From: Planctomycetota bacterium
Lineage (GTDB): Bacteria > Planctomycetota > Planctomycetia > Gemmatales > Gemmataceae
Direction: 5' to 3'
NCBI GenBank assembly: GCA_016195405.1
Contig: JACPZP010000100.1
Span: 62,001 to 126,000, forward strand
Length of the DNA stretch: 64,000 nucleotides
In this document: positions 16,943 through 55,106 of the stretch, piece by piece
Numbering within the stretch: position 1 is the stretch's first letter
How the letters are laid out: every line of letters begins with the position of its first letter
Notes under the pieces: model-generated
What the model was told of the DNA's origin: nothing
The model's database searches: none
The model's input: the letters and a program-made list of their open reading frames with translations, nothing else
Position numbers and translations under genes: made by a program

Positions 16943-18622
16943 TCACGGCAGCGGCCGATGTTCGTAATAGCGGCTCAAAGCGCGCACGCGGTTGACTTGA
17001 TAGGCGACGATGTCTCCCAGGACTGCAAGTCCGATCAAGAAAACAATGTGCTTGTGCAGGCCGTAGAGCTGCTGAGTTTGGATGTACTGCTCCACCCACA
17101 AGAGGATGTAGGCGATTTCGGCAATGACCGTATTGAACCAAATCAGGCTGATTCGAAACCAGAGACCGGAAGCAGCGACGAGGAGCGGATAGCCAATGAT
17201 GATTGGGTTGTTCAACGTGTCATGCCGCTTGAGCGGATCGTCGAGGTAGAGAAGGCCGGAGAAAAACAGCATGTCCAGCGCGGACCACAAGAACGGAATC
17301 GTGCGCTGCCAGGCGGGACGGTGCAAAAGTTTTTGGCATACGAGCGATGCCACGGCCCAGCCGGCCAATATGCCCATCACTTGCGAATGAAGCGACAGCG
17401 TAACGGTCTGGAAGAACTGAAAGCTCACCTGTGCAAGGATGCAGCAAAGCGTCAAGGTCACCAAACGTGAGACCAGCGCGGGCTCGCGCCGCGACCAGCG
17501 GAGAATGCGCTGCCGCCAGCCGGGCTGGCGCAGATCGAGCACTTCGTTCTTCAAGAACTTTTCCAGGTCCGAAGCGAGGGCGGCAGCGGACGGGTAGCGC
17601 TGACATGGCTCCTTTTCCAAGCAGCGCAGGCAAATGAGTTCCAACTCCGCGGGCAGCTCCGGCCGGATCTCCCTGGGTGGTTTCGGCTCGCCTTCCAAAA
17701 CCTGCACGAGCGTGTCCAGCGGCGTGGCCTCGCGGAACGGCGGCCGGCCGGTCAATAGCTCGTAAAGGATGACGCCCAAGCTGTAGACGTCACTGAGCGG
17801 GCCGACTTTCTGAGCGTGGCCGGAAGCCTGCTCCGGGGCCATGTAGCTGGGCGTGCCGACGATGACGCCCGTGCTGGTGCGGTGGCTCTCACCGGTCACG
17901 ACTTTGACCAGGCCAAAGTCGGTGACGTAGGGACATCCCTGCTCGTCGAGAAGAATGTTCGAAGGCTTCAGGTCGCGGTGGACGATGTTGTTCTGGTGTA
18001 AGTGCGCGACTGCTTGAGCGATTTGTCGGATAAGGCGGGCTGCGGCTTCCGGCTCAAGCGGCCCCTCTTCGAGCCGCTTCGATAAGCTGGGGCCGCCGAT
18101 GAATTGCATCGCGAAAAATGGCTGCCCTTGCTCCTGCCCGGCTTCGTAGACAGACACGATGTTCGGGTGGTGCAAGGCCGCGGCAGCACGGGCTTCGTCC
18201 TGAAAGCGCTTGAGCAGCTCCGGCGAAGCAAGCTGCCCCGAAAGGATCATCTTGAGCGCCACCGGTCGCTTCAGTTCCTTGTGCCGCGCTTTGAAAACAA
18301 CCCCCATGCCGCCGCGGCCAATCTCACCTTCCACCTCGTAGGCGCCGAAATCAAAGCTGCCTTCCGCGGCTGAGCCGGTGCAGATTTGGCCGGCGGCGTT
18401 TCCATCCGTCCACGAACGCCCTTTGCCGTTGAGCCTGGCGAGATCGAGCGGCGGGGCCAATAGTTCCAGCGCTTCCAGACACGCGAGCGTATTGGCGAGG
18501 TGGGGATATCGAGCGAGAACCGCCTCCCGGTCCGGATGCTGACCGCTCTGAAGCTGGATCAGGTAGTCGTCAAGCTGACCGAAGGCGACCTCGCTCAGCG
18601 TGTCGTCATTGGGATTGCTCAT
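16943..18622 (-). CDS. Membrane Ser/Thr protein kinase (PknB-like)
   Basis: 559 residues. The ATG at 18622 overlaps the TGA of the sigma factor gene (ATGA), implying translational coupling. After a roughly 90-residue N-terminal segment, the kinase domain spans about 95-360: GEIGRGGMGVVFKARH (P-loop), VALKMI (Lys), HRDLKPSNILL (catalytic loop), DFGLVKV and GTPSYMAPEQASG. The C-terminal third (about 390-545) holds five or six hydrophobic helices in place of PASTA or TPR sensor domains. It probably phosphorylates targets in response to a membrane or redox/ligand signal. ECF sigma factor-kinase pairs are typical of planctomycetes, and the sigma factor is the obvious candidate partner. Confidence 0.92.
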   Translation of the reverse strand: MSNPNDDTLSEVAFGQLDDYLIQLQSGQHPDREAVLARYPHLANTLACLEALELLAPPLDLARLNGKGRSWTDGNAAGQICTGSAAEGSFDFGAYEVEGEIGRGGMGVVFKARHKELKRPVALKMILSGQLASPELLKRFQDEARAAAALHHPNIVSVYEAGQEQGQPFFAMQFIGGPSLSKRLEEGPLEPEAAARLIRQIAQAVAHLHQNNIVHRDLKPSNILLDEQGCPYVTDFGLVKVVTGESHRTSTGVIVGTPSYMAPEQASGHAQKVGPLSDVYSLGVILYELLTGRPPFREATPLDTLVQVLEGEPKPPREIRPELPAELELICLRCLEKEPCQRYPSAAALASDLEKFLKNEVLDLRQPGWRQRILRWSRREPALVSRLVTLTLCCILAQVSFQFFQTVTLSLHSQVMGILAGWAVASLVCQKLLHRPAWQRTIPFLWSALDMLFFSGLLYLDDPLKRHDTLNNPIIIGYPLLVAASGLWFRISLIWFNTVIAEIAYILLWVEQYIQTQQLYGLHKHIVFLIGLAVLGDIVAYQVNRVRALSRYYEHRPLP

Positions 18623-19254
18623 GGCCTCACCTGCGGCGGGGCCGCTTGTTGAAGCGCCGCAAACGCCTGCTGCAACCGGCCCAACGCACGGCCCCAAAGC
18701 ATCTGCACGGCGGCCCGCGACCGGCCCATGCGCTCTGCCACCTCCGTGAACGACATGCGCTGCAGGTTGCGTAGGGAGATCACTTCCTGATAATCTTCGG
18801 GCAACTGGGCCAGCGCGTCGGCAATCTGAAGGTCGCGCTCTTCGCGGATGAGCAGCTGGCTGGGCGACTCGCGGCGGTCCGCAAGGAGTGCCGCGCCGCC
18901 GTTCGAGTTGTCGCCCAGCAGGGTGGTCGTTTCGCGCCTTAGCTCGCGCTTGCCGGTGGCGCGGTAGTGGCGGTGGAAATTGGCGGTATTGCGCGACAGA
19001 ATCTGCCTAAGCCAGGCGAGCCATTCCGCCTCCGTCGCCCCGCGAAAGCTGCCGAAGTCGCGGTAGGCTTCCAGAAGCGTCTGCTGCACGAGATCGGAGG
19101 CGTCGAACTTGGCTGCCAGCCAACTTTCCACTTGCGCCCGGGCGACGATGCTGAGATAGTTGCGGCACGCGCCGAAGAGACGCTCCACTCCGCCGGGAAC
19201 GTTGTCCCGGGCGTGATGCAACAACGTCGTGACCGAAGACGGGTCCGTGTTCAT
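18619..19254 (-). CDS. ECF-type RNA polymerase sigma factor
   Basis: 211 residues. Region 2 is at about 25-95 (DASDLVQQTLLEAYRDFGSFRGATEAEWLAWLRQILSRN) and region 4 at about 140-200 (LPEDYQEVISLRNLQRMSFTEVAERMGRSRAAVQMLWGRALGRLQQAF). The wording 'DASDLVQQTLLEA...F.G....E..AWL..IL' fits planctomycete-type ECF groups associated with kinases. No anti-sigma factor gene is adjacent; the overlapping kinase gene may replace it. A 12-base direct repeat (ATGGAAAGTCGT twice, plus strand 19253-19276) overlaps and precedes the start codon. Confidence 0.9.
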   Translation of the reverse strand: MNTDPSSVTTLLHHARDNVPGGVERLFGACRNYLSIVARAQVESWLAAKFDASDLVQQTLLEAYRDFGSFRGATEAEWLAWLRQILSRNTANFHRHYRATGKRELRRETTTLLGDNSNGGAALLADRRESPSQLLIREERDLQIADALAQLPEDYQEVISLRNLQRMSFTEVAERMGRSRAAVQMLWGRALGRLQQAFAALQQAAPPQVRP

Positions 19255-20414: not shown

Positions 20415-21302
20415 TCAATACTGGTCGGGTACGATTTCCCGGCCGGCGCGGGTTGCGAGAGCGGACATGATTGGGTCGGCGCCATAGGACAGAAAGCGCA
20501 CGGAGCCATCGGCAAAAAGGAAATTGGCGCCGCCGGAATGCGGGCTCCAAAAGTGAAACGCATCGCATTGATTGGCGAAGTCGCCGGCGGTGAATGCGTA
20601 TGGTCCGCTCGGGCAGCCGGGGCCGTAGATGTCGACGTTTAGCTCGCGAACGCCCAGGTCGTAATCGCCCGAGCCAGTTTTCGACTGTCCCCAGCCGGCG
20701 TACCACCAGCCCAGCACCAAGTCGGCGCTGGGCGGGCGCTCGCCGACCATGAGCGTCGTGCTGGTGCCGTCGATGATGTGCGCGATTTTGACGCGCGAGT
20801 CGAGGTATAAGACGCCGTCGAAAGTTGTGAGGTCGGTTCCTTCGACGCCGAGGTACGAGGTCAGTCCCACTTTCACATCTGCGATGAGCGCGGGCGAACG
20901 CATTCGGTAGTCCGACGGGCAGAGGTAGAGCGGAATCATCCGGGACAGCGCCGTGTGCGGCGGATCATTGAGAAAGAACGGGTCTTGCGCGAACGCTCGT
21001 TTCGCTTCGGTCCAAATGTCGTCTTGGTCGATGTAGGGCAGGATGCGTGTCAACCAACTCATGTGCGGGTAGGGGTCAGCGCCGTCTTTGTAACTGCACC
21101 CAGGCGGGAAGACGCGATGGACACTGTGATAATGATGGAGCGCAATGCCGATTTGCTTGAGCTTGTTGGCGCACTCCGTTCGTGCGGCCAGCGTGCGTAC
21201 GTGCTGGACACCCGCAACCGCCAGCGCCAAGAGGGTGCCAATGATGCCGATGACCACGATCAATTCGACGAGGGTGAACGCGCGACGCGGTGCTGGAGTC
21301 AT
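20415..21302 (-). CDS. DUF1559 type II pseudopilin-like protein
   Basis: 295 residues. The N-terminal prepilin segment is RRAFTLVELIVVIGIIGTLLALAVAGVQ; the residue before the FTLVE cleavage point is Ala rather than the more usual Gly. The DUF1559 body has 'RTECANKLKQIGIALHHYHSVHRVFPPG', 'YLCPSD', 'DGTSTTLMVGERP' and the family-closing 'PHSGGANFLFADGSVRFLS'. Such proteins occur in many copies in planctomycetes and are thought to be exported and assembled by a type II secretion/pilus-like machine. It is the last gene of the minus-strand cluster but more GC-rich than the others, so it may not belong functionally. Confidence 0.9.
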   Translation of the reverse strand: MTPAPRRAFTLVELIVVIGIIGTLLALAVAGVQHVRTLAARTECANKLKQIGIALHHYHSVHRVFPPGCSYKDGADPYPHMSWLTRILPYIDQDDIWTEAKRAFAQDPFFLNDPPHTALSRMIPLYLCPSDYRMRSPALIADVKVGLTSYLGVEGTDLTTFDGVLYLDSRVKIAHIIDGTSTTLMVGERPPSADLVLGWWYAGWGQSKTGSGDYDLGVRELNVDIYGPGCPSGPYAFTAGDFANQCDAFHFWSPHSGGANFLFADGSVRFLSYGADPIMSALATRAGREIVPDQY

Positions 21303-21336: not shown

Positions 21337-21819
21337 TTACACGGACAAACTCGTCGAAGCGCTTTTCCCATCGCGTCCCGGAGGAAAAAACACAAACCAA
21401 GACACGAAAACAGTAGTCATCAAGAAGAATAGGGTCCGGAAAAAAGTGAGCCAATCGATAGGATCGGTTTCTGGCCCAGCGCATCCACATGGGAGTGCTT
21501 GCCCTCGCGCAAGTGCAGTTCCTTGGGCCACCAAGAAGCCACAAAACAAGGAAAAACAGAGGATCAGTGCTCCTTTTGTGAAAACGCCAAGAACTAATGT
21601 TAGCCCAACAACAGATTCAACCCAGGGTAGAAAATAAGCGACGCAAAACGCCAAATTCGCACCAAGTATTTCATAACGATAAACCGTGTTCAAGAATTCG
21701 TAAGGCTTCTCGATCTTCCAAATTGCAGAGAAGACCAAGAAAATACCTAGAACTACGCGCAATGGCTTGGAGATCTTCGAAAGCGCAGTGCGTAACCTGC
21801 CCGGCTCCCTCTTGTTCAT
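21337..21819 (-). CDS. MauE/DoxX-like redox membrane protein
   Basis: 160 residues. The ATG at 21819 overlaps the TGA of the preceding gene (ATGA), with GAGAGG before it, so translation is probably coupled. Four hydrophobic helices (about 22-40, 60-80, 85-110, 130-150) match the four-helix MauE/DoxX group. A Cys pair lies between helices 3 and 4 (LPCGCAGPETDP). MauE is needed for disulfide formation in methylamine dehydrogenase, and DoxX-type proteins couple thiol oxidation to quinones, so a role in periplasmic disulfide chemistry is likely. The neighbouring C39-rhodanese and Cys-rich proteins are plausible partners (inference). Confidence 0.8.
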   Translation of the reverse strand: MNKREPGRLRTALSKISKPLRVVLGIFLVFSAIWKIEKPYEFLNTVYRYEILGANLAFCVAYFLPWVESVVGLTLVLGVFTKGALILCFSLFCGFLVAQGTALARGQALPCGCAGPETDPIDWLTFFRTLFFLMTTVFVSWFVFFPPGRDGKSASTSLSV

Positions 21820-22853
21820 CTTCGCCTCTCCCAGCCCTGCCAACCTTCCCGAAAGAGGAAGAGATTATGATAACCCAAGTCCAAAAGCTTGCGGGCAACA
21901 ACATCGCTAAAGTAGCAACCGTAGCTCTCGCAATACACCAGAATCGGTTGTTCCTTGGGCCTCTTATTCATGATGTCTCCCATTTCGCCGACGGATAAGT
22001 AATAGGGAACATTGATCGAGTTTGGCAGATGTCCGCTTTCGTATGAGTCCGGGAGGCGGGCGTCGATGGTCAGATTTCCTGCTTCGTTAGTCCAGGCTTC
22101 CGCTTCGGCGAGTCTAAAGTGGGGCAGAAAGTGAGGCCGGTTGTATTCGCGCAGACTAGCCAATGTCTTTTCGCTCGAAAGGAAGCCGCCTGGGTTTAGC
22201 GAGGCAAACAAGAAAGGACAGAGAATTGTAACCGCAATGATCAGCAGGACCTCATTGATCCATCGATACCCAACGGTCGGAACGCGTGGCGCAACGAACA
22301 CGAGCAAGTTAACAAGAGCGGTTACCAAGCCCGCGAGAAAAAGATACCAGCAAGCAGACGAGAATAGCACCCATAAACCGGCCGAATTGTCCGTGTCAAT
22401 GATCACCGCCGTTCCGTCCCAAATCGAGGCGAGCTCCTCGAAGTTCATTGTTGCCAGCGGTTCAGAGCCGTCATAGATTCTAGCCTTCCCTTCAGAACAC
22501 CCTGCAAAAAGAACCCAATGATTGTAATCCCCCGAAGTGGGATGGTTTTTCACGTGAAGAATGGCCGGACGATCCAAGTTTCGCAAGACAAAACAACTTA
22601 ACTTGCCCCGAACGTAGGGCTCAAAACCGAAATGCCGGGCAGCTCGCGACAAGTCGGCCGCGGAGCTCCCTCGTTTGCTAGTGATGAATTCGGGCTTGAC
22701 AAGATCGACAAAAGGAACGGAACGACCTTGCATCGTCATGGCTCGCGCCAACGCTTGCACGCCGCAGTAGGTCGCAGGATTCGTTGCCTGCCGAGTTGAA
22801 GCAGAAACCGATACGAACACAGAGAAACAAATTGCCAAGGGAAGGTGTGCCAT
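21816..22853 (-). CDS. C39-like peptidase fused to transmembrane helices and a rhodanese domain
   Basis: 345 residues from the ATG at 22853 (AGGAG nine bases upstream); a longer in-frame start overlaps the upstream gene. The N-terminus is a signal/anchor helix (1-19). A C39-like papain-fold domain follows, with Cys30 (ATYCGVQALARAM), His112 (GDYNHWVLFAG) and Asp128 (RIYDGSEP). Two membrane helices lie at about 160-188 and 199-219. The C-terminal rhodanese domain (about 245-345) has 'TIDARLPDSYESGHLPNSINVPY' and catalytic-loop Cys308 in VYCESYGCYFSD, where Cys313 is a second Cys. C39 peptidases normally cut double-glycine leaders and are fused to ABC exporters; none is present here. The combination suggests peptide processing linked to sulfur or thiol transfer (inference). 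Confidence 0.8.
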   Translation of the reverse strand: MAHLPLAICFSVFVSVSASTRQATNPATYCGVQALARAMTMQGRSVPFVDLVKPEFITSKRGSSAADLSRAARHFGFEPYVRGKLSCFVLRNLDRPAILHVKNHPTSGDYNHWVLFAGCSEGKARIYDGSEPLATMNFEELASIWDGTAVIIDTDNSAGLWVLFSSACWYLFLAGLVTALVNLLVFVAPRVPTVGYRWINEVLLIIAVTILCPFLFASLNPGGFLSSEKTLASLREYNRPHFLPHFRLAEAEAWTNEAGNLTIDARLPDSYESGHLPNSINVPYYLSVGEMGDIMNKRPKEQPILVYCESYGCYFSDVVARKLLDLGYHNLFLFREGWQGWERRR

Positions 22854-22879
22854 ATCGATCGGCTCCTGGGGGCGCGCCT

Positions 22880-23986
22880 TTACGCTGGCTTTCGCTTGCA
22901 CCAAAACCGGAGAGAGATCACGAGAAGGACCGCACCGACAATTGCCAAGCTTACCAAAGCGAGGGCCCTGCTCCCCGTCCAGAACCCTTCCGCCGTTTGA
23001 TCAAAATCGGCAAAAGCCGGCACTACCTGGCCTCCTTTCCATTGGTAAGAGACGCCGGAGTCGCGCTCGTCTTCGTTAAAGACTCGGAAACCGTCCGGCA
23101 AGTCTAAGGTGAAAGGGTCTTTCGCCTGAAGATCGGGTCTTAACACGACGTTTGTTCGCTTGAAACGGTAGATCGCTTTGCCAGACGGCGGCGTCGCACT
23201 GGCGTTTTCCCACTCAATTGTGTACTCACCTTGGATCGGAAGAGGGACCCCGTTGTGGTTTTCGAAAGCAAGGTTCCTGACGCCTATTGTGCAAGTTTTC
23301 ATTTGTTGGTGAAACTGCTTGTTGTTGTCCTCCATAGTCTGATCATCGAATCCATAAACGTCGTGCAGTCCCTGTTCCAGCGTTGCTTTTTTCAACAAGA
23401 AGCCACTCTTCTTGCTCACCCAAAGTGACACTTTTCCCCATTTGATGCTGCCCGTGACCAAAAAACAAGCCTCTCCGTCAACGGTGGTTTCTTCCAGGCG
23501 CAAGTCAGGCGCTTTTCTCATAAGCTCTGCTATGGTCCGACCCTGGGTCCCGGGGAAATAACCGTCCAAAGCGCAGCCGAATTCCGCCTGGTCGAAAAGT
23601 AAGTCCTTCCTCCCATTGGATTTCGATGAAATGTACGCGAACTCCGGAGCCTTGGTCTTTTCATTGTAAGCGGCCCCTAAGGAGCCTTTCTCATTGGTCA
23701 CGTCGTGGAAATTCTGCACATCTTTTTCGGGACTCCCCACAAAAATCAATGTCCCTTTCGCGCTTAGGGAATTTCCTTTGCGCCAGAAAGAGAACCTGAT
23801 TCGCTGCTCCGAAGAAGGCCCAGCCTTTTGGTCAAGAACTCCCTCGACATCCATGGTAATATCGCTGCAATACTTGTGTGCGTCGATATTCAAGTCCAGC
23901 ACCTTCTGCGCCGTAATGACTTGGGCGTCAGCATGATTGGTGATCGAAAAAAGAAGAAGCAATGTGATTACCGTATTCTTCGCCAT
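22880..23986 (-). CDS. LolA-like exported protein with C-terminal membrane anchor
   Basis: 368 residues with a signal peptide (1-21, VITLLLLFSITNHADA), a beta-rich body that resembles outer-membrane lipoprotein-sorting (LolA/DUF2092-like) proteins ('FSFWRKGNSLSAKGT', 'TTVDGEACFLVTGSIKWGKVSLWVSKKSGFLLKKATLEQG'), and one membrane helix near the C-terminus (about 340-362) followed by a basic tail. This gives a large extracytoplasmic domain anchored from its C-terminus. The assignment to the LolA-like fold is by pattern only. The gene lies 26 bases before the C39-rhodanese gene and probably belongs to the same operon. Confidence 0.7.
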   Translation of the reverse strand: MAKNTVITLLLLFSITNHADAQVITAQKVLDLNIDAHKYCSDITMDVEGVLDQKAGPSSEQRIRFSFWRKGNSLSAKGTLIFVGSPEKDVQNFHDVTNEKGSLGAAYNEKTKAPEFAYISSKSNGRKDLLFDQAEFGCALDGYFPGTQGRTIAELMRKAPDLRLEETTVDGEACFLVTGSIKWGKVSLWVSKKSGFLLKKATLEQGLHDVYGFDDQTMEDNNKQFHQQMKTCTIGVRNLAFENHNGVPLPIQGEYTIEWENASATPPSGKAIYRFKRTNVVLRPDLQAKDPFTLDLPDGFRVFNEDERDSGVSYQWKGGQVVPAFADFDQTAEGFWTGSRALALVSLAIVGAVLLVISLRFWCKRKPA

Positions 23987-24058
23987 AATAGTTTCTCTGG
24001 ATCTTGCTTATGCGTGCTGTCGACCGGAAAGAAAATGAGTGCTTCTGGACCACGCGCT

Positions 24059-24418
24059 TCACGGACATGCCCTCTGGCAATAACAGCTATTATCATCAAT
24101 ATTCTTGGCTGGGTTCGGTACGGCGGTGCAATAACAGACCCCACCTGCGAAGCTTACACAGCCACCATTACCCTTGTGCTGTTTACACAATGTTCCCGCT
24201 TTTGCTCCGAGATTACATTGCTTACATGTCTGGGTGCTTTTCGCACCACACGCGCCCGTCTTGTTTGGCGAACAGAGCACCAGACCGTCGCCAGTGCACT
24301 CTACAAGTCCTTGGCACGCCCCACCGAAAACGCTTTCCTCCAGCACGGCGTGGGGAGTCAAATAAAGCCCGAAAAGACAGAGACCCAGCAACACGCCAAA
24401 CGAATGAATTGCCCTCAT
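24059..24418 (-). CDS. Secreted cysteine-rich small protein
   Basis: 119 residues from the ATG at 24418, set by the GGAGG ribosome site eight bases upstream. A hydrophobic leader (about 1-24) is followed by a mature region with thirteen Cys in about 90 residues: GAC, VEC, VLC, GAC, TCKQC, TLC, GGC, VCYC, SCYC and AC. No family is recognised. A Gly-Gly pair after the leader (ESVFGG/ACQG) resembles a double-glycine processing point, with Val at -4 but without the usual Leu at -7. Such a protein would need oxidative folding; the nearby MauE-like genes could supply that, and the C39-like protein could cleave it (both inference). Confidence 0.75.
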   Translation of the reverse strand: MRAIHSFGVLLGLCLFGLYLTPHAVLEESVFGGACQGLVECTGDGLVLCSPNKTGACGAKSTQTCKQCNLGAKAGTLCKQHKGNGGCVSFAGGVCYCTAVPNPAKNIDDNSCYCQRACP

Positions 24419-24470
24419 GGTTCGCCTCCAAAAAAAATGAGGATTGACACGAGAATCTTGAGAAGATCCC

Positions 24471-25378
24471 TCAAAAACCGAAGCGTCGTAGCAATACTTC
24501 GTGTCCCTGCAGACGCCCAACTTGGACCAGATAAAGGCCAATTATCCCCGCAACTAGGGAGCTTAGAATCCAGGGAAGCGCCGAGCTCCCCCAAGGGGTC
24601 GCAACCGCCAGATGATAGCCGTAGTCGGTCTTCTCCCAGCGGGTTGGAGTCCACTGTTTTTCGCCCATCGCGATCATCACGCTCCACGCCTTCCCAGTGC
24701 TCCAGTACCCGTAGTCAGGTGACCTCTGACGCAAGAGATCGTCAATCGTGAACTCCAAATCGGTAGATTCTCTCAAAAGCTCAAGGATTTCCTCAGATGA
24801 CGGTTGGCGCAGTTTGTGACCCAGTACCTTGTCTAAGTGCTTATCAGAGCGCAAATCAAGCGAAAGTCCCTGACGGCTATAGTAAACCATGTTGAGAAGA
24901 GCCGGCACGGACACAAGGAGGTAAATCGAGCCAAAGCCGTAAAGTCGCCACGGGGCGGACAACAAAGTTGGTCCGTTGGCCCTTGGCTGGCAAAAGACGA
25001 GCCCCAGCGCGCTAAGGGCCTCCACTAAGGCCACCAGACCCGGATCGATATTACCCTTGCCGAAGCAAGGGCAGGTTTTCTCTCCTTTCAGGCTCAAGAA
25101 AACATTAAACGAGGCGAATGCAACCAACAAGCTGATGGCGCCGCTCCAAGTCCACTTCGGATAGAGCCCGAAGACCAGCCAAAGTCCGAAGCCTATCTCA
25201 AAGACAACCAGGCTTGCCAAGAAGGATCGCGAATCCCACAGGTTTTTTTCCCAAGTTGAGTCCGTGGCCAATTTGTGTCCCTTGCTCCAAGCAGCGGTGA
25301 GAAGCACAGCACAGCCGCCAAGGCAAAGCGGGCCGCGACCCACCAGGGCACCAGAGGTTTTTTCGAGTTCCCGTACAT
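24471..25378 (-). CDS. MauE/DoxX-like membrane protein, frameshifted by a 5-base duplication
   Basis: Intact except near the N-terminus. The frame from the ATG at 25378 begins MYGNSKKPLVPWWVAARFALAAVL, a good first membrane segment, then runs out of register. The next frame continues LLTAAWSKGHKLATDSTWEKNLWDSRSFL through four helices with KTCPCFGKG (about residue 110 of the joined protein) and a C-terminal extracytoplasmic domain before a last helix. Removing one GTGCT from the tandem GTGCTGTGCT (plus strand 25303-25312) restores a single frame of about 300 codons. Without correction the long frame can only start from a TTG at 25409 overlapping the Calx-beta gene. It probably partners the Cys-rich secreted protein. 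Confidence 0.75.
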
Positions 25379-25399
25379 GGGTCCGGACCGGGGACCAAG

Positions 25400-25858
25400 C
25401 TATGGGCAAGGCACGTCGTCATCGATGATGTTCACAACCGCTGTCGATGGCGACCCCAGCTTCGCGTTCACCAGGTTTGAAAGAACCAAATTCACAGTTT
25501 CCGTGCTTTCCACGTCAACGTCGTTTAAAATGAAGATAGTGAAAGTCTTCGTCGTCCCGGCCTCGCTGGGTTGCCAGGTCAAGACCTGAGAGTTCGCTGT
25601 GTAATCCTCGCCTGCCGTGGCTGTACCGTCACTGGTCGAGCACGTGACGGAAACTGCGCTAGTTGGCGAGCCGGTCATCAGGACCGTGATCGTTACCGTG
25701 CCATCGTACTCGTTCACGCTCCAGCTGCTGTACTCGAACGAGACCGTACCTTGTTGAGGCGATGGGGTGGCAAATACCCTTGAGATGACAAGCGGCAACA
25801 GCAGGGTAAGAACAGCTGCGGCCCCTAGCCACGCGATTTGCTTTTTTCTCGCCGCCAT
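25400..25858 (-). CDS. Exported single Calx-beta domain protein
   Basis: 152 residues with GGAGGG upstream of the ATG at 25858. The signal/anchor segment is LGAAAVLTLLLPLVISRVFA. A single Calx-beta domain follows (about 38-150): GTVSFEYSSWSVNEYDGTVTITV, CSTSDGTATAGEDYT, 'DVESTETVNLVLSN' and 'AVVNIIDDD'. Calx-beta domains bind calcium and mediate adhesion in large extracellular proteins. A stand-alone copy of this size is unusual and might be a secreted ligand or structural subunit. It is the first gene of the probable operon after the LuxR-type regulator. Confidence 0.85.
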   Translation of the reverse strand: MAARKKQIAWLGAAAVLTLLLPLVISRVFATPSPQQGTVSFEYSSWSVNEYDGTVTITVLMTGSPTSAVSVTCSTSDGTATAGEDYTANSQVLTWQPSEAGTTKTFTIFILNDVDVESTETVNLVLSNLVNAKLGSPSTAVVNIIDDDVPCP

Positions 25859-25971
25859 GACTCATCCCTCCAAATAATTGAACCGTAGCAGACCGCTGCA
25901 ATGGAGTCACCACCAACACAAAGAATTTACGCGAGCGAAACTGCGATGCATATAGAGTCTTAGCTCTATCC

Positions 25972-26322
25972 TCACCCATCGCTCTTTTCAGGCCGTGTGG
26001 CGGGTTTTTCCTGCGCGTCATCGAGAAGAAATCCGAAAACCCTAAGGACGATTGCGAGCCGATCGTTTAACTTCAGCTTCTTGTGCAGACTGTCGCGGTG
26101 CAGGTTTGCGGTCTTTGTCGTGCATTCCAGCTGGCGGGCGATGCCATCCAATTCGTGGCCCGCGCATGTCGCCTGCAAGCACTTGAGCTCTTGTAGCGTC
26201 AGGCGGTAGTGATCTCTCATGCGCTGCCAGTTTTCGTGCGAAACAAGCCGGACGAAGGCGCCGGGACTAAGTTGTTTCGCGCTGTCATGTTGGATGTCCG
26301 CGATGATTCGATCAGGCGACAT
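25972..26322 (-). CDS. LuxR-type HTH regulator
   Basis: 116 residues from the ATG at 26322 (AAGGAG eleven bases upstream). The C-terminal half is a LuxR/GerE helix-turn-helix: 'RLTLQELKCLQATCAGHELDGIARQLECTTKTANLHRDSLHKKLKLNDRLAIVLRVFGF'. The N-terminal 45 residues are too short for a receiver or autoinducer domain, so it is a stand-alone DNA-binding protein. It lies upstream of the Calx-beta/MauE/C39 cluster on the same strand and is the natural candidate regulator. A small inverted repeat ATAGAG-tcttag-CTCTAT (25952-25969) follows the stop codon. Confidence 0.8.
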   Translation of the reverse strand: MSPDRIIADIQHDSAKQLSPGAFVRLVSHENWQRMRDHYRLTLQELKCLQATCAGHELDGIARQLECTTKTANLHRDSLHKKLKLNDRLAIVLRVFGFLLDDAQEKPATRPEKSDG

Positions 26323-26781
26323 TGTTGGGCTCCTTACTTCCTTCAACGGTAACAAAATCAAAAGCGGCCGAACAGCGCCTTAGTCCCAAGAAGCCTCGGC
26401 TACAAATGCTCCGGTCGCTGACGCTTCGGTCGCTGACGCTCCCGGCTCGCCAATTTTGAAAGTCCCCGACGGATTGCAAATCCGTCCTATGACCGGGCTG
26501 CCAGGCGCTATGCGCAGTGCACGAGAGAGAGAGAGAGTCATTGGCGTTTGTCCTTTCGAGTGAAAAACGAAATGCGGAAAACTCACCTAAGGACAAAGGA
26601 TGAGGATAAGCGACGCGAGGAAATAAGTCAAACGAAAAAAAGGCGGGCCTAGACGCTGCGCGAAAGCCGCGTGAACGCGGCGGAATGCCGTGCCCGAGTG
26701 TTGCTGGAACTGGCGTGCGCTAGTGCGCTGGCGAACATGGCGCGGCGCGGCTGAACATGGCGCGGCTGAAGATGGATTTCC
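26323..26781. other. Repeat-containing noncoding stretch
   Basis: Upstream of the LuxR-type regulator and the histidine kinase. It contains a tandem CGGTCGCTGACGCT (26412-26425 and 26427-26440), a perfect hairpin GACGGATT-gca-AATCCGTC (26468-26486), a (GA)7 microsatellite (26523-26537) and a near-duplicate AACATGGCGCGG (about 26734-26765). The first two resemble dispersed repeats of planctomycete intergenic regions. No gene is supported. Confidence 0.6.
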
Positions 26782-26811: not shown

Positions 26812-26901
26812 AACTATCTCTTCATGGCTTTCAGGGTCGCGCGGACAGCCGCGAGCGGGATCTTCCAAGCATTAAGCCGCGCGCGGCGTCGGAGTAGCAG
26901 C

Positions 26902-28638
26902 GTGTCTCGTCTATTAGTCATTAAGGGCGCCGACGAGGGCAAGCAGTTCGAGCTGGCCGACCCCGTGATCACGCTCGGCCGCGACGCCTCCAGCCGAATC
27001 CGCTTGCACGATACGGAAGTCTCGCGCCGCCATGCCGAGTTTCGCCGGCAAGGCGACGAGACGCGCCTCGTGGACGTCGGCAGCGCCAACGGCACCTACC
27101 TCAACAACCGCAAGGTCCAAGAAGCGACACTGCAGGCCGGCGACCACATACTCATTGGCCAAACCACACTCGTGTTCAGCGCCAGCCGGAGTGAAGCGGA
27201 GAGCATTACCGCGCCGAGCGACCTGGCGGAAAAGATCAACATGATTACGCGCGGAGACCTCGAATTGTCGTCGGCGATCGTCAAGACGATCGGCGAGACC
27301 GAAGGAAGCCGCATCCTCGCCCAACCGGACAAGGCCGCCTCGCCTTGGCTGAAAAACGCCCTCGCCAGCCTGACGGTCATGTACGAAGCGAGTCAGGCGG
27401 TCAGCCACATCCTCGACATCACCCAACTTCTCGACCGCATCCTCGAGATCATTTTCCGCAGTATCATCGCCGACCGCGGCTGCGCCCTGCTTTGCAATCC
27501 CGACACCGGCGAACTCGAACCCAAGGCGCTGCGCTATCGCAAGGCAGGCAGCCAGGGCGAAAAGCTCACCATCAGCCGATCCATCCCTGATTACGTCCTC
27601 AAAGAACGGCAAGGCGTGCTGCTCTCCGACGCTTCGCGCGACGAGCGCTTCAACACCGGCGAGAGCATCGTCAAGTTCGGCATCCGTGAGGTCATCTGCG
27701 TGCCCATCAAGGGGCGGCACGAAACGCTCGGCGTTCTCTACCTCGACACCCACAGCACGGGGCGCGAGATGGTGGCGCGCAAGACCGCGACCGGAAAATT
27801 CACCGAGGACCATCTCACCCTCGCTATCGCCGTCGCCCACCAGGCCGCATTGGCCGTCGAGGAGACGCGCTATCACCACGCCATGGTGCAGGCCGAGCGG
27901 TTGGCGGCTATCGGCCAAACCATCGCCGCCCTCTCGCACCACATCAAGAACATTCTGCAAGGGCTGCGGAGCGGCAGCGAAATCCTGCAAATGGGTTTCA
28001 AGGAGAAGAACGACACGCTGATCCAGCAGGGCTGGCGCGTGGCCGAGAAGAACCAGGCCAAGATTTACGACCTGGTGATGGACATGCTCAGCTACTCGAA
28101 GGAGCGCGTGCCGGCCGTCGAGCCCACGAAGCTCAACGAAAGCGTGCGCGAAGTGGTCGAGTTGTTGGCTGGCCGCACCAAGGAACTGGGTGTCCATCTC
28201 GAACTCAGTCTGGTGGACAACATGCCCATCGTGCAGGTCGACCGTGAAGGCATCCATCGCGCCCTTTTGAACATCGTGGGCAATGCTCTGGACGCCGTGG
28301 AGGAGCGGCCCAACCCGCATGTCACTGTCGGCACCCGCGTGAGTGATCAAGGATGGGCGCGCATCGTCGTTGTCGACAACGGCATCGGCATCCCTCCCGT
28401 CAAGCTCGGCGAGATCTTCAAGCCGTTCGTCAGCACCAAGGGCGCCAAGGGCACCGGGCTCGGCTTGGCCGTGAGCCGGAAAATCCTCCGCGAGCACGGC
28501 GGCGACATCTTGGTCCAAAGCCAGGTCGGAGTCGGAAGCAAGTTCATCCTCCGGCTGCCAATTCGCAGCCCGCTCAGCATCGATCCCTCCGTCACCAGTG
28601 CCGAAATGGCGGTGTTGCCTCCGCCTGAGGCCGACTAG
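26902..28638 (+). CDS. Soluble FHA-GAF sensor histidine kinase
   Basis: 578 residues from the GTG at 26902, chosen because GGAG (26891-26894) precedes it and it begins the FHA strand SRLLVIKGADEG; an ATG at 26824 would add 26 basic residues. Domains: FHA at 2-95 (TLGRDASSRIRL, SRRHAEF, NGTYLN), which binds phosphothreonine; GAF at about 155-330; HisKA with phospho-acceptor His346 (SHHIKN); and HATPase_c (NIVGNALDAV, DNGIGIP, FVSTKGAKGTGLGLAVSRK). No membrane segment. The FHA domain suggests input from a Ser/Thr kinase, so the protein may join Hanks-type and two-component signalling. No response regulator is adjacent. Confidence 0.92.
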   Translation: MSRLLVIKGADEGKQFELADPVITLGRDASSRIRLHDTEVSRRHAEFRRQGDETRLVDVGSANGTYLNNRKVQEATLQAGDHILIGQTTLVFSASRSEAESITAPSDLAEKINMITRGDLELSSAIVKTIGETEGSRILAQPDKAASPWLKNALASLTVMYEASQAVSHILDITQLLDRILEIIFRSIIADRGCALLCNPDTGELEPKALRYRKAGSQGEKLTISRSIPDYVLKERQGVLLSDASRDERFNTGESIVKFGIREVICVPIKGRHETLGVLYLDTHSTGREMVARKTATGKFTEDHLTLAIAVAHQAALAVEETRYHHAMVQAERLAAIGQTIAALSHHIKNILQGLRSGSEILQMGFKEKNDTLIQQGWRVAEKNQAKIYDLVMDMLSYSKERVPAVEPTKLNESVREVVELLAGRTKELGVHLELSLVDNMPIVQVDREGIHRALLNIVGNALDAVEERPNPHVTVGTRVSDQGWARIVVVDNGIGIPPVKLGEIFKPFVSTKGAKGTGLGLAVSRKILREHGGDILVQSQVGVGSKFILRLPIRSPLSIDPSVTSAEMAVLPPPEAD

Positions 28639-53961: not shown

Positions 53962-54020
53962 GATCCCGGTTCATCCCGTGGAGAGTTTTCCTCTATGATA
54001 CTCAAGAAAGGGATCGGATC

Positions 54021-55106
54021 GTGGACTGGCAAAGCGAAATTGCTTCGAACGGCTTGGCGTACTTGATCGCCTTGACCGGCGGCGCGTGCGTCGTTGGGCT
54101 GCTCTACGCCATCCGCCCAAGTCTCCTTAAGGAGATTTGGCCATCGCCACGGATCGATCGAGCCGCGTGGACGGGCGTAGAGGTTTTGGCGGTATTCGTG
54201 CTGTTGATTGTAATTAGCGGAAGAGGACGGCGCCTGCTTGAAGCCGCCGGCTTTTTCTCTGCTTGGCATTCCGAGCAGCCGCCGGAGGCCGCGAATGACT
54301 TGGTTGCCAGGGAGAACCTGTATGGCGCCCTCCTCGATATGCCTTTCATGCTCGGCTTGGCGCTATTGATCCTCTATTACCGTGCGGGATTGACGCCGGC
54401 AGATGTTGGTTTGACGTGTTGGCGGTGGCGCTCCAATCTTGCTCTTGGCGTTCTCGGTTATGCCGTGGGCACGCCACTGGTATTGGGGCTGTACATTGCG
54501 CTCTTACTTCTGATGCGTGCGGTGGGACTCGTTCCCGACGAACATTCCTTCGAGCACCTGGCGCGGCGGAATCTGCCATCGTTTGAGTGGGGGTTAATGT
54601 TTTTTCATGTCGCGATTACTGCGCCTTTGATCGAGGAATTCTTGTTCCGTGGCTTGTTGTTGGGCTGGTTGCCGCGCGCAACCGTGCCGGGACACCTGGT
54701 TCTGTCGGGCGGCGTACTTATATTGGGCCTTCAATGCGTGTATCCCAAGGGATTTGGAATGGTGCGCGCAAGCAAACTAGAGCCCATGGTTTTCGCGCTC
54801 GTGCTGCTCATCGGGTATGCCGCTTTGCTCAGTTGGTTGCGGACACGACCGGAAGCCGGGGATACATCAGCGAGACGAAATCGAATGGAGATATTCGTTG
54901 CGATGTACGGTTCCTCCATGCTGTGGGCGATGTTTCACGCGATGGTGTGGCCGTCGCCGATTGCGCTATTCTTCATGGGGCTGGGACTTAGCTGGTTGTC
55001 ATGGCGCACGCAGAGCCTTGTGGGCCCCATCGTCTGGCATAGTCTCTTCAACTGCGTAGCGTTCCTGGCCTTGGTGTTCCAATACGTGAGCGGGCCTACG
55101 AATTGA
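54021..55106 (+). CDS. CPBP-family (CAAX protease-like) membrane metalloprotease
   Basis: 361 residues from a GTG at 54021, with GGGATCGG upstream. Eight or so hydrophobic helices. CPBP motifs: EExxxR in 'APLIEEFLFRGLLLGWL', motif 2 'LWAMFHAMVWPSPIALFFMGLGLSWL' and motif 3 'LVGPIVWHSLFNCVAF'. An N-terminal extension of about 100 residues includes two extra helices. The family includes CAAX prenyl protease homologues and bacteriocin-immunity proteins; the partner is unknown. It is divergent from trpC. Confidence 0.9.
   Translation: MDWQSEIASNGLAYLIALTGGACVVGLLYAIRPSLLKEIWPSPRIDRAAWTGVEVLAVFVLLIVISGRGRRLLEAAGFFSAWHSEQPPEAANDLVARENLYGALLDMPFMLGLALLILYYRAGLTPADVGLTCWRWRSNLALGVLGYAVGTPLVLGLYIALLLLMRAVGLVPDEHSFEHLARRNLPSFEWGLMFFHVAITAPLIEEFLFRGLLLGWLPRATVPGHLVLSGGVLILGLQCVYPKGFGMVRASKLEPMVFALVLLIGYAALLSWLRTRPEAGDTSARRNRMEIFVAMYGSSMLWAMFHAMVWPSPIALFFMGLGLSWLSWRTQSLVGPIVWHSLFNCVAFLALVFQYVSGPTN

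Follow-up and report, generated by a model that had tools for sequence, protein, structure and literature searches.

A candidate planctomycete operon linking a C39 peptidase-rhodanese fusion and MauE to the predicted maturation of a cysteine-rich secreted peptide

We analysed a 64,000-nucleotide stretch of the genome of a planctomycete of the family Gemmataceae (assembly GCA_016195405.1, contig JACPZP010000100.1, positions 62,001 to 126,000; hereafter the window), in which a run of seven minus-strand genes at 21337-26322 encodes, among other proteins, a C39 peptidase-rhodanese fusion, membrane proteins of the MauE type, a LolA-like protein and a small cysteine-rich secreted protein. We consider it probable that this locus is an operon that moves horizontally and yields a single small disulfide-rich peptide, which would be exported through the general secretory (Sec) pathway, cut after a double glycine by the C39 domain and oxidised by MauE together with the rhodanese. 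Such an arrangement would relocate double-glycine peptide processing to the periplasm and couple it to thiol chemistry. The operon type is real, conserved, sporadic across the class Planctomycetia, built from known parts and apparently undescribed; we found no description of this gene combination in planctomycetes in the open-licence literature.

The cysteine-rich precursors and their predicted cleavage site

The window precursor starts at the ATG at 24418, which is preceded by GGAGG, and not at a TTG farther upstream. Its propeptide ends VLEESVFGG, and the 86-amino-acid mature part that would follow the Gly-Gly site holds 13 cysteines, the number first counted. The protein has no match in Pfam or NCBIfam, and family searches of Pfam and of Protein Data Bank (PDB) sequences gave nothing useful. 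Relatives were collected at loci that carry the fusion, with candidates picked only by a hydrophobic start and several cysteines in small open reading frames (ORFs). The 29 peptides obtained, found at most loci, form one divergent family, in which a Pro after the hydrophobic core and a short propeptide are followed by the pattern C-x7/8-C-x6/8-C ... C ... C ... C. When scored with a leave-one-family-out profile, 24 of the 29 did better than 99% or more of composition-matched shuffles; the window peptide was among them and was itself recognised, with 0/1000 shuffles equally good.

All 25 non-redundant peptides have Gly-[Gly/Ala/Ser] between the signal peptide and the Cys-rich part (position -1: Gly in 20, Ala in 4, Ser in 1). 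Position -4 is hydrophobic in 18 of them (Val in 13) against a background of 25% (P 8.6e-7), and in 15/22 (P 2e-5) when three later-added peptides are left out. By comparison, the C39 peptidase LahT reads Val-4 and Leu-7 of its leader, and the known motifs are GG, GA and GS (PMC6363468). In independent relatives the FGG site first proposed for the window protein has its counterpart in a GG/GA/GS motif whose -4 residue is hydrophobic and at which cutting is predicted. The number of mature cysteines is even in 22/25 peptides (P 8e-5).

The peptide profile matched 20 of 287 genomes, all 20 of which carry the C39 fusion, and no fusion-free genome, although most of the 20 had themselves contributed peptides to the profile. 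Two peptides absent from the profile (L035, EITGA; L039, QVIGG) were recovered at fusion loci, and both fit [VI]xG[GA]. Against the window's own genome the profile gave no match and missed the known window peptide too, so this search is uninformative on further copies. Two loci (L040 6027-7455, L042 6424-7307) carry paralogous Cys-rich precursors in tandem, whose leaders are near-identical and whose mature parts diverge; most copies end CGGGG, and the LolA-like gene lies downstream in both.

The C39-rhodanese fusion and its core partners

The fusion is single-copy in the window's 6.86-Mb, 214-contig genome. Sequence and fold both place its N-terminal domain in peptidase family C39: the Pfam Peptidase_C39 score of 37.1 bits exceeds its cut-off of 22, and in an AlphaFold2 model of the fusion (mean predicted local distance difference test, pLDDT, 84.8) Foldseek matched this domain to the double-glycine peptidases ComA, PCAT1 and LahT (E 1e-8 to 1e-7). 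The C-terminal domain (Pfam Rhodanese, 55.3 bits) matched rhodaneses, including the rhodanese domain (RHD) of persulfide reductases. Residues that never vary in 23 aligned fusions include the C39 nucleophile C47 and His H129, the rhodanese DxR residues D281 and R283, and the cysteines C325 and C330; at C39 position 145 the residue is Asp in 21 of 26 homologues, with Asn in 3 and Glu in 2. The fusion thus has the C39 catalytic Cys, His and Asp/Asn as well as the fold, DxR and active-site Cys of a rhodanese. Its two rhodanese cysteines, the second invariant like the first, form a CQSxxC motif, which takes the place of a CRxGxR-type sulfurtransferase loop.

The loop between the two transmembrane (TM) helices of the fusion is positively charged (mean +2.4) and the TM flanks are neutral, so both the C39 and the rhodanese domains are predicted to lie on the periplasmic side. 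The C39 domain is trailed by the two TM helices and the rhodanese alone, and an ATP-binding cassette (ABC) gene is not among the recurrent genes of the conserved neighbourhood. An exporter of the peptidase-containing ABC transporter (PCAT) or ABC transporter maturation and secretion (AMS) type was therefore rejected. We also rejected a standard locus for ribosomally synthesized and post-translationally modified peptides (RiPPs), in agreement with the first-pass annotation: a Pfam/NCBIfam search of the window genes gave no modifying enzyme (LanM, radical SAM, YcaO and others), and none was noticed in the conserved neighbours.

MauE2, encoded next to the fusion, matches the MauE profile and has the CxC motif of MauE/DoxX proteins in the form CGC, which is kept in 25/26 homologues, all encoded immediately after a C39 fusion. 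The LolA-like protein has no Pfam or NCBIfam match, and searches of its family against Pfam and PDB sequences were useless; only folding placed it. Its AlphaFold2 model (pLDDT 86.4) has the LolA fold, with the LolA superfamily structure 3buu as the best Foldseek match (E 8.5e-10) and LolA3 (9tp6) as a further match.

Conservation, spread and genomic setting

We examined 33 loci in the Planctomycetia (the window, L032-L057 and L100-L105; about five families). The gene order LolA-like protein, C39-rhodanese fusion, MauE is kept across families f1, f3, f4, f6 and f13. The LolA-like gene is present in 31/33 loci, both exceptions being cut by contig ends, and a MauE gene follows the fusion in 31/33, the exceptions being one contig end and L057, in which the loss of MauE accompanies that of the rhodanese domain. 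Joint conservation of the neighbours and of the C39 residues, on which the first-pass annotation had made its case depend, is thus what we observed.

C39-rhodanese homologues (E < 1e-17, 23-33% identity) occur in about 24 of 297 genomes of the class, and profile searches found the fusion in 11/95 genomes of the window's own family and in 15/170 and 4/45 of two other families. Genomes from elsewhere in the phylum, outside the class, showed no intact full-length fusion. One such genome (G637) has two near-identical C39-rhodanese and MauE pairs (L106 7413-9067, L107 7108-8765), in which Ser replaces the C39 Cys and near which no Cys-rich peptide was found; we regard these as a degenerate or repurposed form. 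At L108 5849-7026 (G467) a TM-rhodanese (CDGWHC) without a C39 domain adjoins MauE, showing that rhodanese-MauE pairs exist independently outside the class. A plasmid search returned lone rhodaneses only.

The 21337-26322 region is the lowest-GC 5-kb stretch of the window (52.6%; window mean 59.8%, s.d. 2.1%), as expected of the low-GC island described at first, and in 25/28 loci the cluster core has a lower GC content than its own flanks (mean -4.7 points, P 3e-7). In a tree of the fusions, the window, on a long branch, joins two loci from another family at 100/98 support, and the labels of the families are intermingled. The interleaved tree and the low core GC indicate transfer between families. 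Repeated transfer is the simplest reading of these patterns, in keeping with the horizontal acquisition that had been suggested, and deep paralogy is a possible alternative. Because the peptides are hypervariable and their spread is patchy, we favour a role for the mature peptide between cells or at the surface.

The gene run as first delimited contains the seven ORFs listed for it, all on the minus strand, and proved one gene short at its 3' end, where a gene for a DUF1559 pseudopilin follows (Table 1). DUF1559 lies directly downstream on the same strand in 15/33 loci and is fused to MauE in 5. With 54 DUF1559-type matches in the window's genome, an estimated ~1% of genes, its recurrence beside the core is not a matter of chance, and the DUF1559 pseudopilin belongs to the module. 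The MauE-DUF1559 fusions of L038, L047, L048, L051 and L053 retain a prepilin-like motif in mid-protein, at which a prepilin peptidase could split the two halves. An apparent correspondence between the C-terminal tail of the window MauE2 and the linker of these fusions was dropped as an artefact of viewing reference alignment columns only. In eight loci the genes are followed by one for a PMT_2-like membrane glycosyltransferase, and at L039 6527-7777 MauE is fused to a family 2 glycosyltransferase; together these give a hint of glycosylation on some peptides.

Of the remaining genes of the run, MauE1, marginally below the Pfam cut-off, has homologues in 50/294 genomes, several of which adjoin Calx and Cys-rich genes. 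Calx-beta adjoins MauE1 in L121, L122 and L123 and lies within the same gene run in L126. We regard both as lineage add-ons to the core module. The Calx-beta protein, once suggested as a possible further substrate, recurs as an accessory in MauE1-type sister loci only and has no GG site. The LuxR gene, once counted as part of the module, has no homologue in related 17-kb loci and is not conserved with it.

Further related loci were reached through MauE1 and Calx-beta. In one (L127, 111-6562) the order is a MauE that carries CPKC in a segment at its C terminus, a Cys-rich precursor whose signal peptide is followed by the canonical leader LSDRELAQVRGG, a LolA-like protein, a C39-DUF1573 protein and a PMT_2 protein. 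We read the CPKC segment from its sequence as thioredoxin-like (Pfam names MauE only), and it thus occupies the place that the rhodanese has in the window locus. Additional GG precursors lie beside C39 proteins in L162 (2728-8669) and L163 (6044-9729), which with L127 represent a second C39 type of Cys-rich peptide locus, DUF1573-containing or stand-alone. No C39 was present in the stretch read of the Calx-MauE1 loci L122 and L123, whose Cys-rich proteins lack GG, and the same holds for L126.

Three gene pairs of the window run overlap (Calx-beta and MauE1, LolA-like and C39, C39 and MauE2), and gaps of 52 and 72 bp flank the Cys-rich gene, so the tight spacing originally reported was borne out. 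Ordinary planctomycete regulators, identified by reading the sequence only, occupy the flanks: an FHA-GAF-histidine-kinase-like protein at 26824-28638, and a Ser/Thr kinase overlapping an extracytoplasmic function (ECF)-type sigma gene at 16943-19254. AT skew is marked at 1-1000 (-0.39) and 54001-55000 (-0.27) relative to the remaining window.

Table 1. Features of the window locus, in 5' to 3' order along the minus strand (window coordinates)
Feature	Coordinates	Strand	Basis and remarks
LuxR/GerE-type helix-turn-helix protein, possible local regulator	25972..26361	-	Pfam GerE 37 bits; probable ATG 26322
Single Calx-beta domain protein, secreted or membrane-anchored, C-terminal Cys-Pro; accessory gene	25400..25858	-	Pfam Calx-beta 77.3 bits
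MauE1, 312 aa, MauE-like redox membrane domain with CPCFG motif, plus an additional domain at the C terminus and a TM segment	24471..25409	-	Pfam MauE 26.7 bits (cut-off 27); start codon uncertain
Cys-rich peptide precursor, 119 aa	24059..24418	-	Sequence; signal peptide, short propeptide and mature part
Gly-Gly codons, predicted C39 cleavage site (..SVF-GG / AC..)	24320..24325	-	Motif in relatives
LolA-superfamily protein, 368 aa, signal peptide and C-terminal TM anchor	22880..23986	-	AlphaFold2 and Foldseek
C39 peptidase domain, two TM helices, rhodanese	21816..22904	-	Pfam, AlphaFold2, Foldseek; probable ATG 22853
MauE2, MauE/DoxX redox membrane protein, 168 aa, CGC motif	21337..21843	-	Pfam MauE 82.5 bits (cut-off 27); probable ATG 21819
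DUF1559 (SBP_bac_10) H-X9-DG pseudopilin-like protein	20415..21302	-	Pfam/NCBIfam; outside the run as first delimited

Proposed mechanism, alternatives and known systems

In the mechanism that we propose, the 119-amino-acid precursor would cross the inner membrane by Sec, as its signal peptide suggests. The C39 domain, TM-anchored in the periplasm, would then cut after the Gly-Gly of VLEESVFGG to release a Cys-rich peptide of about 86 amino acids, a step to which the catalytic residues, the substrate motif and the genome co-occurrence all point. The cysteines of the peptide would be oxidised to disulfides by MauE and the rhodanese, acting through the CGC motif of the former and the CQSxxC cysteines of the latter; the rhodanese domain may stand in for a thioredoxin-fold partner of MauE, as the CPKC-bearing MauE of the sister locus suggests. 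As a guess, the LolA-fold protein might keep the precursor or pass it on, and a part in surface delivery or display might fall to the DUF1559 pseudopilin. The absence of a peptide where Ser replaces the C39 Cys (L106/L107) and the joint loss of rhodanese and MauE in L057 support this mechanism. The module for export, oxidation and processing envisaged by the first-pass annotation is thus supported in its core, with export more likely by plain Sec and with precursor cutting and oxidation as predicted steps.

Several observations weigh against the proposed mechanism. With its odd number of cysteines, the window peptide is an exception to the even count of its family. The propeptides are shorter than classical leaders, and most members match the consensus only weakly at E-8, L-7 and L-12. 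Taken alone, the Gly-[Gly/Ala/Ser] count reaches a P of only 0.001 under composition-preserving shuffles of the region, and in the MauE1 locus L128 a GG precedes the Cys part with no C39 visible. The C39 Cys is usually preceded by the oxyanion Gln, which lies 4.3 Å from the oxyanion in LahT (PMC6363468); here this residue is not conserved (Q at -4 to -8 in 6/26 homologues). Finally, the oxidase role of MauE is a proposal from the literature.

The same genes could instead serve envelope housekeeping, the Cys-rich protein being a disulfide-cross-linked structural wall protein and not a released peptide. Planctomycete walls are said to be cystine-rich, and the DUF1559 and LolA partners suit an envelope function. 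However, the patchy spread within the three families, the transfer between families and the hypervariable peptides are unlike a housekeeping wall part, and we regard this explanation as possible but doubtful.

C39-like domains of RTX transporters act as a non-cutting tether or chaperone, and the C39 domain here could likewise hold its substrate without cutting it, the module being an oxidative folding station and the GG a mere flexible joint between the signal peptide and the Cys-rich domain. The unconserved oxyanion Gln and the modest significance of the GG itself would fit such a role. It is nevertheless improbable, given that the nucleophile Cys and the His are invariant in the 23 rows, that the Asp is kept or replaced by Asn or Glu, that the -4 hydrophobic preference is typical of cleaved leaders, and that the sole locus pair with a Cys-to-Ser change has no peptide.

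The preserved DxR and active-site Cys of the rhodanese, together with its Foldseek similarity to persulfide reductase RHDs, raise a third alternative, in which rhodanese sulfane sulfur and MauE would serve to introduce persulfides or trisulfides into the peptide, or to sense sulfide. We give it little credence: CQSxxC replaces the CRxGxR loop, and its second invariant Cys suits a dithiol-disulfide relay; the sister locus has a CPKC thioredoxin-like segment in the rhodanese's stead; and no sulfur donor enzyme is present nearby. It is a long shot that Sec-secreted double-glycine peptides with rhodanese-MauE sulfur cross-links made outside the inner membrane (disulfides by persulfide relay, or trisulfides) constitute a new class, and just as speculative that such cross-linking amounts to peptide modification without cytoplasmic modifying enzymes or an ABC exporter. 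A fortuitous grouping of functionally unrelated genes in an AT-rich insert might be suspected from the fragmented genome and from the position of LuxR and Calx-beta outside the core elsewhere, but this is scarcely credible and is refuted for the core by a gene order repeated in nearly all 33 loci, by fusions between members and by the genome-wide co-occurrence of peptide and fusion.

To our knowledge, few peptide products have come from this phylum. If the locus is indeed an operon for a disulfide-rich secreted peptide, it would define a widespread, overlooked family of planctomycete secreted Cys-rich peptides together with their processing machine. The peptides themselves would be candidate new signals, toxins or surface proteins, and production of disulfide-rich peptides is one use to which the module could be put. 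A rhodanese would be seen as a dedicated partner of a membrane thiol oxidase. A periplasmic double-glycine protease would also gain a natural substrate, which is not known for FapD (PMC5557850).

FapD, from the Pseudomonas Fap amyloid system, is the closest precedent. It is a Sec-exported periplasmic C39 protease needed for a partner's secretion, its target is not established, and GG/GA motifs are suspected as that target (PMC5557850). Like the window fusion, it is a C39 peptidase without an ABC transporter, whereas it has been described without a TM-rhodanese fusion or MauE and its substrates are amyloid subunits and not Cys-rich peptides. None of the fap operon partners (the FapF pore, amyloid repeats) was seen in the loci examined. 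The PCAT/AMS proteins ComA, PCAT1 and LahT share with the window system the C39 fold, the Cys/His(/Asp) residues and a GG/GA/GS site with a hydrophobic -4. In contrast to them, the window system has no ABC or permease domain, a predicted periplasmic C39 domain and a Sec signal before a short propeptide, and it lacks the usual Gln.

The other parts have relatives of their own. The partner of about 370 amino acids has the fold of the LolA superfamily (NE2245, LolA3) but differs in its C-terminal TM anchor, in lacking a lipoprotein-carrier context and in a sequence too distant for Pfam. MauE and MauD mature methylamine dehydrogenase; where that system has a MauD-type thioredoxin partner, the window system has a rhodanese domain, no mau structural genes, and additional C39 and LolA-like proteins. 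In candidate RiPP clusters of Streptomyces, MauE likewise adjoins a Cys-rich exported protein, and a role in disulfide formation has been proposed for it (PMC7794033). According to PMC5403849, which cites Chng 2012, the periplasmic E. coli rhodanese PspE can restore disulfide formation, a capacity that the window rhodanese would share. PspE, however, has a single Cys, works when overexpressed and is not joined to a peptidase, whereas the window rhodanese has two invariant cysteines and a MauE partner.

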